The position numbers and the translations under genes were made by a program. The notes below the pieces were generated by a model. That model was given only the letters and a program-made list of their open reading frames with translations, did not search any database and had not been told where the DNA came from. A stretch of DNA of 6,658 nucleotides. Source: Victivallales bacterium (lineage in GTDB: Bacteria > Verrucomicrobiota > Lentisphaeria > Oligosphaerales > Oligosphaeraceae). The stretch is from contig JAFZZD010000881.1 in assembly GCA_017615955.1 (NCBI GenBank), positions 1 to 6,658 on the forward strand, in the 5' to 3' direction. Within the stretch, counting starts at the first letter, position 1. Each line of letters starts with the position of its first letter. Below are positions 464 to 6,633 of this stretch, one piece after another.

Positions 464-3130
464 ATGCGAGTGAAAAGCCTGTTGATTTTACTGATGATGG
501 CAGTCGTTGCCTGTGGAGTGGAACTAACCCTGGATGGGAAGTTGGATGAGGCGGCGTGGCAGAAGGCAGAAAAGCACAGCGGCTTCGTCAAGGCGAAACA
601 GAAGCAAGGCTCGCCTGAAATCAAGGCGCAGACAGAATTTTCCGTGATTCAGGAGGCGGACGCCGTCTATTTCGGCATAAAGTGCCATGAGCCATTGATG
701 GACAAGCTTATCAAGAAGGAGAAGGCAGCCGCCGTATGGACTGATGACGGACTGGAGATCTTCCTGGCGCCTTCGGGACTGCCTTCGGACTTCTACCAGT
801 TCCGCCTCACGGTAAACCACCAGGATGCCAGCCTGTTCTACGGCGAGGGCGGCGCAATACAGCCAGACCCATATTCACCTGAATGGACATACGCGGTGCA
901 CCTGGACAAGGACTTCTGGTCCTGCGAGGTGAAGTTCCCATTGACCGCATTCTACATGACGCGCCAGAACCTGTGGCGTTCCGAGTGGCTGGTGGACGTA
1001 AGCCGCACGCGCACTACTGAAAAGGAAAGCAGCTCCTGGAGTCCCAGGATCTACAAGTTCCTTGAACCCAAGCAGTTCCGCAAGATGGGCGGCTTCCCCA
1101 TGAGGAAGGAAAACGATGATGTGTGGGTTTCCGATGCGCGTGCCATTGTGAGCGGCAGGAAGGATAACGGTGCTCTTACAGGTGTTCTGGCCCTTACGGT
1201 CAATGTACCGAAGAGGAGCGAATATTCGGTCAATGGCAAGAGAATGGAACTGAAGTCGGGAGCCAACAAGGTGTCCGTTCCATACGAATATGCCAAGTCA
1301 GGCCGCAATGAAGTGCCGATCGTGTGCAAGCGCATGTCCGATGGCAAGGAATTCAAGCGCAAATACCCTGTAATCGCCACATACGAGCCATTGAAGGTGC
1401 GGCTGACGCTGCCTGAATACCGCAACAACTTCTATCCGGGGCAGGACAGTTCCGTCATCGCAGGCAGCATCGAGCGCATAGGCAAGGGCGAGGTCACGCT
1501 GACGCTTTCCGGCGAAGGTCTCAAGACGCAGAAGAAAGTGCTGGGCAAGTCGTTGGAATTCTCATTTGACGGCAAGGGCTTCAAGGAAGGCGCCACTGCG
1601 GAACTCAAGGCTGAGACACAGGGCATCACCCAGATTGTGAAGATCCGCAAGCTGGCGCCAAGCAAGCAAAGGATGAGCTGGATCTCCAATGGAATGCTGG
1701 TCGTGGATGGCAAGCCTGTGATGCCGCGCCGCATGTCCGCAGTCTATTACAATGGCGGCGAGGCCTTCAAGAAGAAATTTGACGCAGACAACCTGCACCT
1801 CACGATGGACATCAATTCGCAGACTGGCTGGATCGAACCCTTCAGGCTGATCAAGGGAATCGAGCAGAAGGAGGCCACCCGCGATGTGCGTCCCTGCGAC
1901 GAGCTGTTCAAGAAGATTGACGAGACCATCGCAAAGAACAAGGACAGGGACTTTGTCTCCTACGAGATTTCCGACGAACCCGAATGCAGGAACATTTCGC
2001 CCGAATACCTGGGGTACATCTACCGCTATCTTGCGGAGAAGGATCCATACCATGTGGTGCACATGTGCTCACGCTCCGCAAGCAAGTATATCGACTGCGC
2101 GGACTGGTTCGAACCCCATCCCTACATCAACCCGATGATCTTCAACGGCGAACGCCGCTACGGCAGGGAAATCAACACGATTGGTGCGTTCCTGGATGAA
2201 ATCTGGTTGCAGAACCGCCCCGACAAGTGCGTGGGTTTGAATGCGACTGCGTTCAGCTACAAGTACTCCAGCGACGCCTCAGACTATCCCAACTTCCGCG
2301 AGATAATCTGCCATATCTGGGCGGGCATGAACCATGGTGCCAAGACTGTTAAGTCCTACGCATACCATGACCTGGGCGACCGTCCAAGCATCTATGAGGG
2401 GCTTCGCTATGTTTATGGCTGCATGGAAAGGCTTCAGGACTTCATCTTGTTCGCAAAGCGCACCTTCCTGGTGAAGACTCCTGACTGCGAGGCAATGCTG
2501 TACGAGAACGGCAAGGACCGCATGATCGTGGTGGTCAATATGAGCACGAAGAAGATCAAGGCCAGCCTTCCTGGCGTGAAGGGCACTTTCTTTGAATTCT
2601 GCGGCCCGCGCACATTCAGCAAGTTTGACCTTGAACTGGAGCCCCAGGAAGTGATCGTTGCCACATCCCGCAAGATGGACGAGGGTCTGAAGTCCCGCGC
2701 GGAAGTGGCCGCTGAAATCGACAAGCTGGAGGAAGCCCGCAAGAGCCGCGGCAACATCCTGTTCAACCGCCATAATGACATTGAGATCACCGCATCGCGC
2801 CCAACCGGCTCATGCTACAAGATGTTCGATGGCGTGACGGATGTTCATGCCTTCAGCCAGAACCGCGGCAAGAGCGGATTTTTTGAGATGGCGTTCCCCA
2901 AGTTCGTGCCTGAATTCAATGTGATACGCGTCTTTGGCTACAACATAGACGGAATGGTGGTCAAGATCCGCAAGAAGGGCGACTGGGTCACGCTTGAGCC
3001 TGCCAAACTTGAGAAGAGCGAATTCATGCGGGAGCTGATTTTCAAGGACAAGCTCACCACCGTGAAGATACGCTTTGAAATCCCCAAGGGCAAATTTGAG
3101 CTTTATGAGATTGAACTTCTGAACAATTGA
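464..3130 (+). CDS. Exported CBM9-like / TIM-barrel glycoside-hydrolase-like / discoidin-like multidomain protein
   Basis: This 888-residue protein probably binds and may cleave a polysaccharide at the cell surface. Residues 1-16 are an export signal ending in VVAC, an acceptable lipobox, so Cys17 may carry lipid; a plain signal peptide is the alternative. Residues 20-213 resemble family-9-like (DOMON-fold) carbohydrate-binding domains: LDGKLDEAAW, then DDGLEIFLAP at 94-103, then a WSCEVKFPL strand. Residues 240-395 look like one or two beta-sandwiches. Residues 405-665 resemble a glycosidase TIM barrel. It opens with VVDGKPVMPRR, has YEISDEPE around 500-507 with Glu505 as candidate acid/base, and ends with a GMNHGAKTVKSYAYHD strand. 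A beta-sandwich follows (665-735), then a helical linker and a discoidin-like (F5/8, CBM32-type) domain at about 763-886. AAGGAG at 450-455 lies 8 bases before this ATG and supports the start; GTG at 470 is a less likely alternative. No second catalytic carboxylate is evident, so it could be a binding protein. Substrate and GH family are unknown. Confidence 0.8.
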   Translation: MRVKSLLILLMMAVVACGVELTLDGKLDEAAWQKAEKHSGFVKAKQKQGSPEIKAQTEFSVIQEADAVYFGIKCHEPLMDKLIKKEKAAAVWTDDGLEIFLAPSGLPSDFYQFRLTVNHQDASLFYGEGGAIQPDPYSPEWTYAVHLDKDFWSCEVKFPLTAFYMTRQNLWRSEWLVDVSRTRTTEKESSSWSPRIYKFLEPKQFRKMGGFPMRKENDDVWVSDARAIVSGRKDNGALTGVLALTVNVPKRSEYSVNGKRMELKSGANKVSVPYEYAKSGRNEVPIVCKRMSDGKEFKRKYPVIATYEPLKVRLTLPEYRNNFYPGQDSSVIAGSIERIGKGEVTLTLSGEGLKTQKKVLGKSLEFSFDGKGFKEGATAELKAETQGITQIVKIRKLAPSKQRMSWISNGMLVVDGKPVMPRRMSAVYYNGGEAFKKKFDADNLHLTMDINSQTGWIEPFRLIKGIEQKEATRDVRPCDELFKKIDETIAKNKDRDFVSYEISDEPECRNISPEYLGYIYRYLAEKDPYHVVHMCSRSASKYIDCADWFEPHPYINPMIFNGERRYGREINTIGAFLDEIWLQNRPDKCVGLNATAFSYKYSSDASDYPNFREIICHIWAGMNHGAKTVKSYAYHDLGDRPSIYEGLRYVYGCMERLQDFILFAKRTFLVKTPDCEAMLYENGKDRMIVVVNMSTKKIKASLPGVKGTFFEFCGPRTFSKFDLELEPQEVIVATSRKMDEGLKSRAEVAAEIDKLEEARKSRGNILFNRHNDIEITASRPTGSCYKMFDGVTDVHAFSQNRGKSGFFEMAFPKFVPEFNVIRVFGYNIDGMVVKIRKKGDWVTLEPAKLEKSEFMRELIFKDKLTTVKIRFEIPKGKFELYEIELLNN

Positions 3131-3132
3131 GG
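3129..3132 (+). promoter_or_regulatory. Ribosome-binding site overlapping the upstream stop codon; decides the start at 3142
   Basis: GAGG overlaps the TGA stop of the preceding gene and sits 9 bases before ATG 3142. It has no spacing to ATG 3133 and only 3 bases to ATG 3136. It therefore favors 3142 over these starts and over TTG 3127, which overlaps the upstream stop codon. The arrangement suggests translational coupling of the two exported proteins. Confidence 0.65.
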
Positions 3133-3141
3133 ATGATGACC

Positions 3142-3927
3142 ATGCGCAAGATCATGATATTGTTGATGCTGGCCCTGCTTGTGTGCGCCAGGGCTGAAGA
3201 GCAGGTGATTTGGAAATTGGATGAGACCAATACTGCAGTAGATGGCAAGAAAAGCTGGTATTCGGACAAGCCACTGGTGGTGGAACCACTGCCTGAAGGC
3301 GGCTTTGCCCTGAAAAGCCAGGCCACGCGCCGCCTGCTCCTTCAGCCTGATGCATGGCTGGTGTTCGAGCTGGCGAAGGCGGAAATTGTCGAGCCTGGAA
3401 AATACACGATGTGGAGCATGCACGTCCATACAGACAAGTATGGCTACATCGTGGGCAGCGACCACCAGGTGCCACTGGGTCTTCATACCATCAAGCTCAA
3501 TAGCCTCACCAAGCCAATGACCACAGGGGTCATCTTCTACAACTACAACCTCAATCTGTATTTCAAGTACATTAAGCTGGTGACCGAGCCGGAGAACAGC
3601 CTGTGCGCAATCGTGCCGGAGGGAAAGACCGTCCTAGAAGTGGGCGACAAGATCACAATATTGCTGAAACTTAAGGAACCATGCGAGGACGTCAGCTGCA
3701 AACTGATGCAGAACCGCTTCCCCTTCTCCCTCAATGGCACGGATGCCGTTGACCTGAAGGCAGTGGATGACGACTGCAAGATCTGGCGCGCGGACATCAC
3801 AATCAAGAGCTACCAGAGCAAGCGTCCAGTTGGCATGCGCGGAATACGCATAAAGGCAAGCGTCCTGGGCGGCAAGCTGAATATGCCAATCTACGGCGTA
3901 ATACCAGCCGCATTCAAGAAGCAGTAA
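3142..3927 (+). CDS. Secreted beta-rich protein of unknown function, paired with the upstream glycosidase-like gene
   Basis: From ATG 3142 this encodes 261 residues. Residues 1-18 are a clear signal peptide: MRK, a Leu/Met-rich core, then ARA before Glu19, a standard signal peptidase I site. Cys15 lies in LLVC but has Val before it, so a lipoprotein is less likely. The mature part looks all-beta in two portions. Residues 19-150 resemble a galactose-binding-like or CBM-like sandwich, with aromatic strands such as KYTMWSMHVHTDKYGYIVG and a GLHTIKL strand typical of such folds. Residues 155-261 look Ig-like, starting VPEGKTVLEVGDKITILLKL. I see no catalytic signature and do not recognise a family. 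The 11-base gap to the upstream stop and the shared export route suggest one operon and a common substrate or surface complex, an inference from position only. Longer starts at 3127, 3133 and 3136 are open but poorly placed relative to the ribosome-binding site. Confidence 0.75.
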   Translation: MRKIMILLMLALLVCARAEEQVIWKLDETNTAVDGKKSWYSDKPLVVEPLPEGGFALKSQATRRLLLQPDAWLVFELAKAEIVEPGKYTMWSMHVHTDKYGYIVGSDHQVPLGLHTIKLNSLTKPMTTGVIFYNYNLNLYFKYIKLVTEPENSLCAIVPEGKTVLEVGDKITILLKLKEPCEDVSCKLMQNRFPFSLNGTDAVDLKAVDDDCKIWRADITIKSYQSKRPVGMRGIRIKASVLGGKLNMPIYGVIPAAFKKQ

Positions 3928-3935
3928 TTGTTCTT

Positions 3936-3998
3936 CTGTGGTCTGTGGTCTGTGGCCTGTGGCCTGTGGACTGTGGCCTGTGGACAGTGGACTGTGAA
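3936..3998 (+). repeat. Left arm: nine tandem CTGTGGN heptamers
   Basis: Nine uninterrupted 7-bp units start at 3936 and read CTGTGGT twice, CTGTGGC twice, CTGTGGA, CTGTGGC, CTGTGGA, CAGTGGA and CTGTGAA. Variation falls mainly in the last base of each unit, and the final two units are degenerate. The array begins 8 bases after the TAA of the secreted protein gene. Its 3' part (3980-3992, GTGGACAGTGGAC) is an exact 13-bp inverted complement of the heptamers at 4125-4137 and again at 4132-4144. The 7-bp period is comparable in kind to the short tandem heptamer repeats described from cyanobacteria; no relationship is claimed. Confidence 0.9.
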
Positions 3999-4028
3999 GA
4001 AGTTGGGTATTCGCTGACAGTGTTGTGC

Positions 4029-4082
4029 CTGCCAGATGCGGATGGCAGTCACGCGTCCTGACGCGCGGCCAATGGCCGCGCG
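4029..4082 (+). other. Nested hairpins in the core between the heptamer arms
   Basis: Three inverted repeats are packed here. CTGCCA (4029-4034) pairs with TGGCAG (4043-4048) around an 8-nt loop. CGCGTC (4052-4057) pairs with GACGCG (4060-4065) around a tight 2-base loop. CGCGCGGCC (4062-4070) pairs perfectly with GGCCGCGCG (4074-4082) around AAT. The last two share 4062-4065, so they exclude each other, giving two alternative folds. No T-run follows the 9-bp stem, so it is not a standard intrinsic terminator. It could be the conserved core of a mobile palindromic repeat, or it could block or stabilise transcript ends. Confidence 0.7.
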
Positions 4083-4106
4083 GAATAGCGTACCACGCGG
4101 AATAGC
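4079..4106 (+). repeat. Pair of 11-bp direct repeats CGCGGAATAGC
   Basis: CGCGGAATAGC occurs at 4079-4089 and 4096-4106, 17 bases start to start, with GTACCA between them. The first copy shares its CGCG with the 3' side of the 9-bp hairpin. This may be a partial internal duplication within the repeat cassette or two binding sites for one protein. The sequence alone does not decide. Confidence 0.7.
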
Positions 4107-4118
4107 TCTGGCTTTCCC

Positions 4119-4145
4119 TCCACTGTCCACTGTCCACTGTCCACT
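4119..4145 (-). repeat. Right arm: inverted TCCACTG heptamer array
   Basis: Three full TCCACTG units (4119-4125, 4126-4132, 4133-4139) and a fourth cut to TCCACT (4140-4145) form a tandem heptamer array. On the opposite strand it reads CAGTGGA, identical to the eighth unit of the left array (3985-3991), so the two arrays face each other. The array ends 7 bases before the Shine-Dalgarno site of the next gene. In an RNA the two arms could pair over 13 bp or more and enclose the hairpin core. Confidence 0.9.
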
Positions 4146-4167
4146 AAATACAAAGGAGTAAGTTTTT

Positions 4168-6633
4168 ATGTCAAATAGCGTGAATCGCGAATTATACGAA
4201 TGTTTTTTAGCATCTTTGAATGCAGATGCACTGCGGGACGATGTGGTGGCGTTGAACAAGCTGGACTTGCCGCAGACATTTGAGGCATACCACAAGTCCA
4301 TGCGCTATGTACAGGAGAAGCTGCTTCAGGCCGGCATTCCCAATGTGGAGCTGCTTGAATTTCCTGCGGACGGCAAGACTGTTTACCAGGACAAGCGCAT
4401 GCCCCTGGCATGGGAGGCCAGCGTGGGGCGCCTTACAATGCTTCCACCTGGAGCAAGCAGGGACAGCATCACGGAAAAGGACGTTCTGGCGGACTACAGC
4501 AAGAACCCGTTCAACCTGGTGAAGGGTTCGGTTTCCACGCCGCCTGAAGGCATAGTCACGCGCATCATCACGGAGCAGCAGTACCTGGCTGGCGAGAATC
4601 CAAAGGACGCTTTGATCATGCTGGAGCCATTCACCTGGCCCAGAAAGAAGGTGCTGACTCCATTGCTCAGGCAGGGTGGCCTGGGAGTGATTTCCGACTT
4701 CCTGTCAGGCAGGTATATGACGCCTGACGCAACGCAGTGGGTGAATGCCGGCACCGAATCTGGTGACTGGCACGTAACATCCGAGGACTTGCCCTTCATT
4801 TCATTCAGCGTCTCGCCCAAGCAAGGCGACATGATCCGCAGCAAGGCCAATGCAGGCGGTCTGCGTGTGCTGGTGGAATGCGACGGAAGGCGCTATGAGG
4901 GAAAGCTGCCCATGGTCACCGCCATGATCCCAGGCCGCCAGAAGAAGGAAATCTGGATTCTGGCCCACGCATTCGAACCATTGCTGGACGATGATGCAAA
5001 TGGCATTGTCGCCTCAATTGAAATTGCAAAGCGCATCATGGAAAAGGGCACGCCTGAATACTCGGTGCGACTGGTGTTTGCCATGGAGTTGTATGGATAT
5101 GCTGCGTATGCGGCCTACAGGGGCAATTGCCTGAAGGGACAGGTGCTGGGTGCCTGCAACCTGGACAGTCTCGGCGCCATGCCAGGCAAGCTGAGGTGCG
5201 TGCGTCCTGGTGGAAATCCAACGTATGTCGGCAGCAAACTGCTGGAGGAAGTGACCAGCGAATTCCAGCAGGAACTGGATCTGGAATTAAGTCCAAAGGC
5301 ATATTTTGACGACATGTTCCTCAGCGATGCCAGCATTGGCCTGCCAACCACCTGGATATTGGGCGGCACAGCAGGATATTGGCATAATTCCGCGCAATGC
5401 GAGCCAGAACTGTTTGACTGGGAGATTTTCCGCAAGAATGTGGCGTTTGCCTGCACATACCTGTACCGCCTGGCGAATTACACAGGATCGGAACCAGAGG
5501 CACCTGCCCTGGAAGTCAAGGAAAAGCACTCCAAGTGGAGGGACTATGCAGCGCAGATTGTCGCGGAGCGTGCTGAAGTCGGCTTCCCCCACAGCCTTGC
5601 AAAGGTGCCGATGGATGATAGAATCGGCCTGCCAGACGGCATAATCTACGGCCCCATGTCCAATGTGCTCAGCAATATGGACGGACGGAAGAGCCTGGCT
5701 CGACTGATTGCCGAGGCCGAGGCGGAACGGAATACAGAACTGACCGAAGGCCAGGTCAAGAAGTATGTTTCCTTTGTGAACTTCCTGGCGGACTATGGCT
5801 ACCTTTCCATGAAGTCAAGGCCAGAAATCACGCAGGACATGATATGCGAGGCACTGCAAAAGCTGGGCATATCCCAGGAGGACACCTTGCTGGTGCACGC
5901 ATCCTCATCCAATTGCGGCTATGTGCGTGGCGGTGCAAGAACCATAATCGATGCCATACGGGAAAGCGCGGGCACTGCCATTTTCACCACATTCACCAGG
6001 CCATACATATACCTTGGCGGACTCAACAAAGGATGGAACTACATGCCATACGAGGCAAAGGACTGGAAGGCGGTATGGACTGGCAACGTGGGCAAATCCG
6101 TCCTGCGCTTCTATCCGGAGGCGGTGCGCAGCCGGCACATCACCCATTCCTGGGCTGGCTTCGGCAAGAACGCCCATTTCTGCGTGGACGCACAAGGCGC
6201 CTGCGATGCACCTGCTGGCAAGACCTCGCCCATGCACCAGGCATTGCAACTGGGCGGCAAGGTGCTTTTCTTCGGCACTGGCCTGGCACCAAACACATTC
6301 CTGCACTACCTGGAGGACTGCGCGGACATGCCTTTCCTGGATGACGCAGTCTGCCGCGTAAGGAATGAGGACGGCTCGTTGAGGACCGTGATTGTTCCGC
6401 GGCATCTGCCAGGCCATCGGGACTTCTACCGCAAGGACGCCGAAAACTGCAAATTCTACCAGCGGGCATTTGCCAGGGGGCTTGATGTCAAGTCCGTCCA
6501 ACTGGGACTGGGACAATTGCAACTAATTGACCTGCGGCAGATGTTCGACATAGGCATGCAGCTTCTAAAGGAGGACAGGCGCACTCTGCTGTGCGATGAC
6601 AAGGACTGCCTCTTCTGCAGAAGATTCCAATGA
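4168..6633 (+). CDS. M28/DUF4910-like aminopeptidase fused to an AAC(3)-type aminoglycoside-like N-acetyltransferase
   Basis: This 821-residue cytoplasmic protein has no signal peptide. Residues 20-440 resemble a zinc aminopeptidase (M28 fold): an N-terminal lid with MPLAW, a protease-associated-like insert at about 112-250 (GGLGVISDF, LPFISFS), then candidate metal ligands His267 (ILAHAFE), Asp274-276 (LLDDDANG), Glu307 (AMELYG), Asp333 (NLDSLG) and His406 (YWHNS). Residues 488-548 look like a winged helix (NMDGRKSLARLI ... ADYGYLS). Residues 555-815 are a full-length AAC(3) domain with DTLLVHASSSNCGYVRGG, AVRSRHITHSWAGFG (His657 in the place of the usual catalytic-region His-Pro), GKTSPMHQAL and GLAPNTFLHYLED (His713, Glu716). 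The tail has a Cys cluster (809, 814, 817). AAC(3) enzymes move acetyl from acetyl-CoA to an amine; the true substrate here is unknown and need not be an antibiotic. AAAGGAG at 4152-4158 precedes the ATG, and an in-frame TAA at 4159-4161 excludes a longer start. Confidence 0.82.
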   Translation: MSNSVNRELYECFLASLNADALRDDVVALNKLDLPQTFEAYHKSMRYVQEKLLQAGIPNVELLEFPADGKTVYQDKRMPLAWEASVGRLTMLPPGASRDSITEKDVLADYSKNPFNLVKGSVSTPPEGIVTRIITEQQYLAGENPKDALIMLEPFTWPRKKVLTPLLRQGGLGVISDFLSGRYMTPDATQWVNAGTESGDWHVTSEDLPFISFSVSPKQGDMIRSKANAGGLRVLVECDGRRYEGKLPMVTAMIPGRQKKEIWILAHAFEPLLDDDANGIVASIEIAKRIMEKGTPEYSVRLVFAMELYGYAAYAAYRGNCLKGQVLGACNLDSLGAMPGKLRCVRPGGNPTYVGSKLLEEVTSEFQQELDLELSPKAYFDDMFLSDASIGLPTTWILGGTAGYWHNSAQCEPELFDWEIFRKNVAFACTYLYRLANYTGSEPEAPALEVKEKHSKWRDYAAQIVAERAEVGFPHSLAKVPMDDRIGLPDGIIYGPMSNVLSNMDGRKSLARLIAEAEAERNTELTEGQVKKYVSFVNFLADYGYLSMKSRPEITQDMICEALQKLGISQEDTLLVHASSSNCGYVRGGARTIIDAIRESAGTAIFTTFTRPYIYLGGLNKGWNYMPYEAKDWKAVWTGNVGKSVLRFYPEAVRSRHITHSWAGFGKNAHFCVDAQGACDAPAGKTSPMHQALQLGGKVLFFGTGLAPNTFLHYLEDCADMPFLDDAVCRVRNEDGSLRTVIVPRHLPGHRDFYRKDAENCKFYQRAFARGLDVKSVQLGLGQLQLIDLRQMFDIGMQLLKEDRRTLLCDDKDCLFCRRFQ
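6611..6624. repeat. Perfect 14-bp palindrome at the 3' end of the fusion gene
   Basis: TCTTCTGCAGAAGA is its own reverse complement and lies inside the last codons (LFCRR), 6 bases before the TGA. Its right half AGAAGA (6619-6624) could instead pair with TCTTCT at 6637-6642 across the stop codon. No long T-run follows before the window ends, so it is not called a terminator. It may be chance in a coding sequence. Confidence 0.35.

Follow-up and report, generated by a model that had tools for sequence, protein, structure and literature searches.

A DUF4910/M28-like domain fused to an AAC(3)-fold acyltransferase in Lentisphaeria: a candidate single-chain N-acyl-exchange protein

We identified an 821-residue fusion protein encoded on a 6,658-nucleotide contig (JAFZZD010000881.1; the whole stretch analysed, here called the window) from the genome assembly GCA_017615955.1 of a Victivallales bacterium (Verrucomicrobiota, Lentisphaeria). 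The gene (positions 4168..6633, plus strand), defined from its open reading frame (ORF), Pfam matches, homologs and an AlphaFold2 model, joins a DUF4910/M28-like domain, a winged-helix module and an AAC(3)-fold acyltransferase. This fusion is genuine, occurs widely in its group and is under constraint, and it is a variant of known families, not a new kind of protein. We tentatively propose, at roughly even odds, that it is a cytoplasmic enzyme that exchanges the N-acyl substituent of one amino group within a single chain.

The ORF runs from ATG to TGA through 821 codons with zero internal stops, and inspection alone places a Shine-Dalgarno-like AAAGGAG (4152..4158, plus strand) 9 bases upstream of the ATG. 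The DUF4910/M28-like domain covers residues ~8-440 (4189..5487), the winged-helix module residues ~455-552 (5530..5823) and the AAC(3) fold residues ~548-821 (5809..6630), all on the plus strand; the first and the last were assigned by profile, alignment and structure comparison. An earlier note on this DNA, made from the letters alone, had described the same three modules, with boundaries that prove correct to about 30 residues. In Pfam, PF02522 (Antibiotic_NAT) matches residues 575-800 (E 2.4e-30; 106.3 bits against a cut-off of 25) and PF16254 (DUF4910) matches residues 190-336 (37.2 bits against 26.6), the latter over part of its profile (35-145 of 247). The Peptidase_M28 score stays under its cut-off (15.5 against 21.3). 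The AlphaFold2 model (pLDDT 94.2, pTM 0.91) gives clear structural matches to Protein Data Bank (PDB) entry 3k9t and to AAC(3)-IVa. The nearest solved fold to the N-terminal half is 3k9t (CA_C2195, the DUF4910 prototype), and canonical DUF4910 matches this half at E 2.9e-14 in a profile comparison, with ~21% identity over aligned columns. The uninterrupted frame, the two profile matches over their cut-offs and the two matching folds bear out the claim of an intact single chain that carries both families.

Within the hydrolase domain, an insert at residues ~60-235 (4345..4872, plus strand; boundary approximate) lies where DUF4910 proteins have the PA-like DUF2172 domain, yet no DUF2172 match to the fusion protein was found in Pfam at E<=1. 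The HTH_47 model likewise has no match to the protein, and its middle region is covered by no Pfam model. DUF4910 proteins already carry a winged helix, HTH_47 (PMC4000134), so the module cannot be taken as special to the fusion, even though the HTH_47 model finds no match here. Apart from the ~21% identity and the unmatched DUF2172 and HTH_47 models, the fusion differs from the DUF4910-DUF2172-HTH_47 proteins (PIRSF015244, which include CA_C2195 and Cj1295) in keeping an Asp, D333, that is Cys in canonical members, in the added AAC(3) domain and in its gene neighbourhoods. Inspection found no hydrophobic N-terminus, from which we predict that the protein is probably cytoplasmic.

A homolog search across 5.8 billion proteins, with 7,992 candidates scored, returned 324 homologs at E<=1e-3. 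PF02522 was present in all 120 of these that were listed (lengths 770-938 aa), and the listed homologs, where the organism was named, came from Victivallales, Lentisphaeria or Lentisphaerae. A full-length fusion with 95% identity is encoded in a goat-rumen Victivallales metagenome-assembled genome (L001), the sole match in the genome-contig search. At least 94 of 387 genomes of the source phylum match some part of the protein, a lower bound since at most two candidates were scored per genome. A single-piece alignment extends over at least 805 residues in 7 of the 387, and further genomes of the phylum carry both halves within one frame of ~890-1,015 codons (for example G250:C122, G356:C394 and G095:C116). 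In a tree, the window falls in a clade whose 25 sampled rows are all fused, where 'fused', here and in the residue counts of a second search described below, means longer than 780 aa. The ratio of nonsynonymous to synonymous substitution rates (dN/dS, Nei-Gojobori) between the window and L001 is 0.042 overall, and 0.026, 0.064 and 0.053 for residues 1-440, 441-552 and 553-821, respectively; all parts of the fusion are under purifying selection. Because every listed homolog carries the AAC(3) half, all parts are selected and the structural model is confident, the join is not a read error, an alternative raised at the outset that the family-wide fusion and the near-identical copy in L001 both speak against.

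Active-site places in the hydrolase half were assigned by alignment to M28 enzymes and canonical DUF4910 proteins, using what we take to be the residue roles of the Aeromonas aminopeptidase, of which Glu151 alone is named in a PDB title. All of the following elements lie on the plus strand. The segment HAFEPLLDDDANG (4966..5004) contains H267 and D275, equivalent to metal ligands, together with F269 at the place of the catalytic Asp and the invariant E270. In FAMELYG (5077..5097), E307 aligns with the first, general-base Glu of M28 enzymes and L308 with the second, metal-binding Glu. D333 (5164..5166), aligned to the Cys of canonical DUF4910, is a further metal-ligand equivalent, and H406 (5383..5385) is the last. 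Across 159 fused homologs (the 120 closest and 39 more distant, without overlap between the sets), five of the seven M28 catalytic and metal places are retained and two are replaced in every protein, and H267, E270, D275, E307, D333 and H406 are invariant. The two-zinc M28 site with its catalytic Asp and Glu-Glu pair is thus absent from all 159, and the name 'aminopeptidase' used in the earlier note is too strong, because two canonical active-site places are replaced throughout. Judging from the alignment, the His, Asp and His at the zinc-ligand places of CA_C2195 would correspond to H267, D275 and H406 in all 159. In CA_C2195, Ser and Pro replace the M28 Asp and Glu (PMC4000134); the Glu following that Pro aligns with E307, so that our sequence alignment and the published structure-based assignment differ by one place.

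The same residues recur outside the fusion. A second search, with a stand-alone relative as query, listed 120 of 139 matches, 39 fused and 81 unfused, some of the unfused being fragmentary. All 81 stand-alone entries have H267, D275 and E307; D333 is kept in 80, the exception being a gap, and H406 in 78, the others having a gap (two) or Pro (one). Stand-alone relatives (~590-650 aa; L003, L004, L005, P0121 and others) resemble the fusion in their DUF4910/M28-like domain, winged helix and identical active-site residues, but have no AAC(3) domain and a longer stretch preceding the winged helix. The L001 genome itself also encodes such relatives, of 606-645 aa and without the AAC(3) half.

In the AAC(3) half, the motif H713-Y-L-E716 (6304..6315, plus strand) aligns H713 with BA2930 residue His183, which is mutated in PDB entries 3n0s and 3kzl. 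H577, H713, E716 and R751 are invariant in the 159 fused homologs, and H660, in the motif RSxHxxH, is kept in 158. H657 is found in 116 of the 120 closest homologs and is mostly Asp among the other fusions (34/39). In a sample of 47 fusions, the AAC(3) domains fall into two clades, one with 19 rows and the other with 28. AAC(3)-fold proteins are not special by themselves, as a control search was positive in 5 of 14 well-known genomes. What sets the fusion apart from AAC(3)/Antibiotic_NAT enzymes such as AAC(3)-IVa, BA2930, YokD and FrbF is the chain shared with a hydrolase fold, the conserved H660, a CxxxxCxxC tail in the clade of the window, and scores far under the cut-offs of the NCBIfam AAC(3) models that it matches (for example 85.7 against 270 bits for the resistance equivalog). 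The tail, CDDKDCLFC in the window (C809, C814 and C817; 6592..6618, plus strand), is shared by 114-115 of the 120 closest homologs. Of the 47 sampled fusions, 26 have the CxxxxCxxC pattern, as does one stand-alone AAC(3) protein (L081); 21 of 22 separate AAC(3) proteins lack it.

Genes around canonical DUF4910 members include aminosugar N-acetyltransferases, and Das et al. suggest transacylation or deacylation for the family (PMC4000134). In Campylobacter, Cj1295 is a PIRSF015244 protein (PMC3068675) with a DUF2172 domain (PMC6321876). Genetic evidence shows that an N5-acyl variant of pseudaminic acid, its 2,3-di-O-methylglyceroyl form, requires Cj1295, and the authors hypothesized that it cleaves the 5-acetamido group and so allows another acyl to be placed there (PMC3068675). 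Cj1296/Cj1297 are annotated as aminoglycoside N3'-acetyltransferase (PMC3025981), and we read from the locus numbers that they adjoin Cj1295.

Pairs of the same kind occur in the source phylum and on plasmids. When 374 genomes of the phylum were searched for DUF4910, 48 had a match, which in 18 of them is strong, full-length and of the canonical type; among 361 genomes searched for HTH_47, it was found in the same 18 only. Five of the 18 have an AAC(3) match. In three, the AAC(3) gene lies 3' of the DUF4910 gene on one strand, which is the order of the fused domains; the two genes are 4 bp apart in L055 and 3 bp apart in L056, and they overlap by 4 bp in L057. In L058 the two lie ~5 kb apart, and in G133 AAC(3) is on other contigs. 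Neighbours in regions with both families include cytidylyltransferase, hexapeptide transferase, ketoacyl synthase and NeuB genes. DUF4910 matched 42 plasmid records; 10 of these were examined, 9 of them with gene tables, which are incomplete. A Tritonibacter plasmid has DUF4910 and AAC(3) genes that overlap by 4 bp in the fusion order, beside pseC and FlmD genes, and on an Agrobacterium salinitolerans plasmid the two are separated by an IS3 element near pseB/pseC. The adjacent pairs (L055, L056, L057, L065, and Cj1295 with Cj1296/7) thus share both families and their order with the fusion, but as separate genes.

Given these observations, we favour N-acyl exchange, since both active sites are conserved (including the His/Glu pair of the AAC(3) half), all parts are under selection and the N-terminal fold is that of 3k9t; since DUF4910 and AAC(3) recur as touching genes, in the manner of a Rosetta stone; and since one N-acyl variant of pseudaminic acid depends on Cj1295 and aminosugar N-acetyltransferases lie near DUF4910 genes. 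The DUF4910/M28-like half, probably with one zinc, would hydrolyse an amide and so remove an acyl group, such as acetyl or aminoacyl, from the amine of a small substrate, probably one derived from a sugar. This substrate would be held or oriented by the winged-helix module, and the AAC(3)-fold half would then acylate the freed amine from acyl-CoA or acyl carrier protein, possibly with channelling between the two sites. The suggestion that the protein deacylates and re-acylates, and does not serve drug resistance, is therefore the best reading of the touching gene pairs and the Cj1295 genetics (PMC3068675).

Several observations weigh against this proposal. In all 159 fused homologs the place of the catalytic Asp (269) is Tyr or Phe and that of the second Glu (308) is never Glu, with Leu, Met and others instead. 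The authors of 3k9t regard the DUF4910 family as having no peptidase active site (PMC4000134), and in the parts of the literature available we found no report of catalytic activity for any DUF4910 protein. Many listed relatives have no AAC(3) half, so the hydrolysis and acylation steps need not be coupled. Of the 18 genomes that have canonical DUF4910, 13 gave no AAC(3) match, and none is listed nearby in 7 of the 9 plasmid gene tables, incomplete as these are; in 4 of those 7 regions there is a PIG-L deacetylase gene. In the tree, the AAC(3) genes near canonical DUF4910 group by themselves in a clade that excludes the fused AAC(3) domains, so the pairing is either very ancient or has more than one origin. 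In an alignment of 12 canonical DUF4910 proteins (L055-L057, L059-L067), the zinc-ligand Asp is replaced by Asn (ANNE) in 7, all from nonulosonate/AAC(3) clusters, and the four DUF4910 proteins that touch an AAC(3) gene are all of this type, whereas the fusion keeps the Asp (AND). The other 5 have AND and come from other plasmid clusters (of the rfbC plus sugar nucleotidyltransferase type), 4 of them with PIG-L. With the zinc-ligand Asp lost, AAC(3)-linked DUF4910 proteins may carry out a different chemistry from the fusion.

Gene context also bears on the proposal. We compared 22 fusion loci (the window, the near-copy in L001 and 20 further regions) and ran Pfam on 37 neighbour proteins. By tblastn, NeuB relatives occur in only 1 of the 22, so the fusion does not sit in nonulosonate clusters; its neighbours are mixed, with carbohydrate contexts, and are not consistently sugar-biosynthesis operons. 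This makes it harder to carry the nonulosonate role over directly and leaves room for a role in salvage. The protein may instead be a catabolic or salvage enzyme, in which the N-terminal half would act on an imported compound, N-acyl or aminoacyl, to release an amine, and the C-terminal half would cap that or another amine, in carbohydrate use and not in biosynthesis. We consider this unlikely, if worth serious attention. An AraC/GntR regulator is the next gene in at least 6 of the 22 loci (L036, after a doubtful small ORF, and L038, L039, L040, L046 and L047), a sodium:solute symporter gene precedes the fusion in 2 (L039 and L040), and GH109/GH92, GH4, FGGY kinase, CBM9 and PIG-L genes lie near fusions. 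A stand-alone relative in the L001 genome is likewise preceded by a symporter gene. Such regulator, symporter and carbohydrate genes are expected to be common in genomes of this kind, which counts against salvage, as does the lack of any partner gene that is constant across the 22 loci.

Rather improbable, in our view, is a non-catalytic N-terminal half that would serve as a scaffold to bind a substrate or partner, leaving a plain AAC(3)-fold N-acyltransferase. The two replaced active-site places and the opinion of the 3k9t authors would fit such a role, but H267, D275, E307, D333 and H406 are invariant in the fused homologs and nearly so in the stand-alone entries, and dN/dS is lowest in this half. 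We give little credence to an N-terminal half that acylates an amino sugar by transfer from a donor of the peptide or glutamine type, with a second acyl added by the C-terminal half. This would follow the proposal of Das et al. and agree with ATP-grasp ligase genes near DUF4910 (Table 2 of PMC4000134, and the Tritonibacter plasmid), but the AAC(3) domain in the chain already provides an acyl-CoA route. An aminoglycoside-resistance enzyme with an accessory domain is very improbable, since the AAC(3) fold and its His/Glu pair are accompanied by a score far below the equivalog cut-off and by extra domains conserved in all 159 fused homologs.

Upstream of the fusion and on its strand, positions 464-3927 of the window hold two genes for secreted-looking proteins, a CBM9-like protein of 888 aa and one of 266 aa with no family match over cut-off. 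Both have relatives in L001, where the first is broken up into two ORFs. Between these genes and the fusion, positions 3936-4145 contain seven-base tandem repeats, CTGTGGA-like at 3936-3996 and TCCACTG at 4119-4145, which form inverted arms (3966-3991 with 4119-4144, 88% complementary); the corresponding gap in L001 has no repeats.

The DUF4910 family, found in the sugar-modification clusters of many bacteria, has been puzzling since the 2014 structure paper, which described a peptidase fold with no peptidase site. Finding the likely partner activity on one polypeptide with DUF4910 points to N-acyl exchange as a concrete reaction for the family, and offers a soluble-looking protein with which to test it, from a rumen bacterium that is not known to be a pathogen. 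It is possible, though we hold this with less confidence than the exchange activity itself, that the fusions represent an expanded family of acyl-editing enzymes in Lentisphaeria, welding amide hydrolysis and CoA-dependent re-acylation of one amine into a single chain; this would reveal the reaction of DUF4910 proteins, including the switch of the N-acyl group of pseudaminic acid in Campylobacter. In such genomes, a gene annotated 'AAC(3)' is not necessarily a sign of drug resistance.
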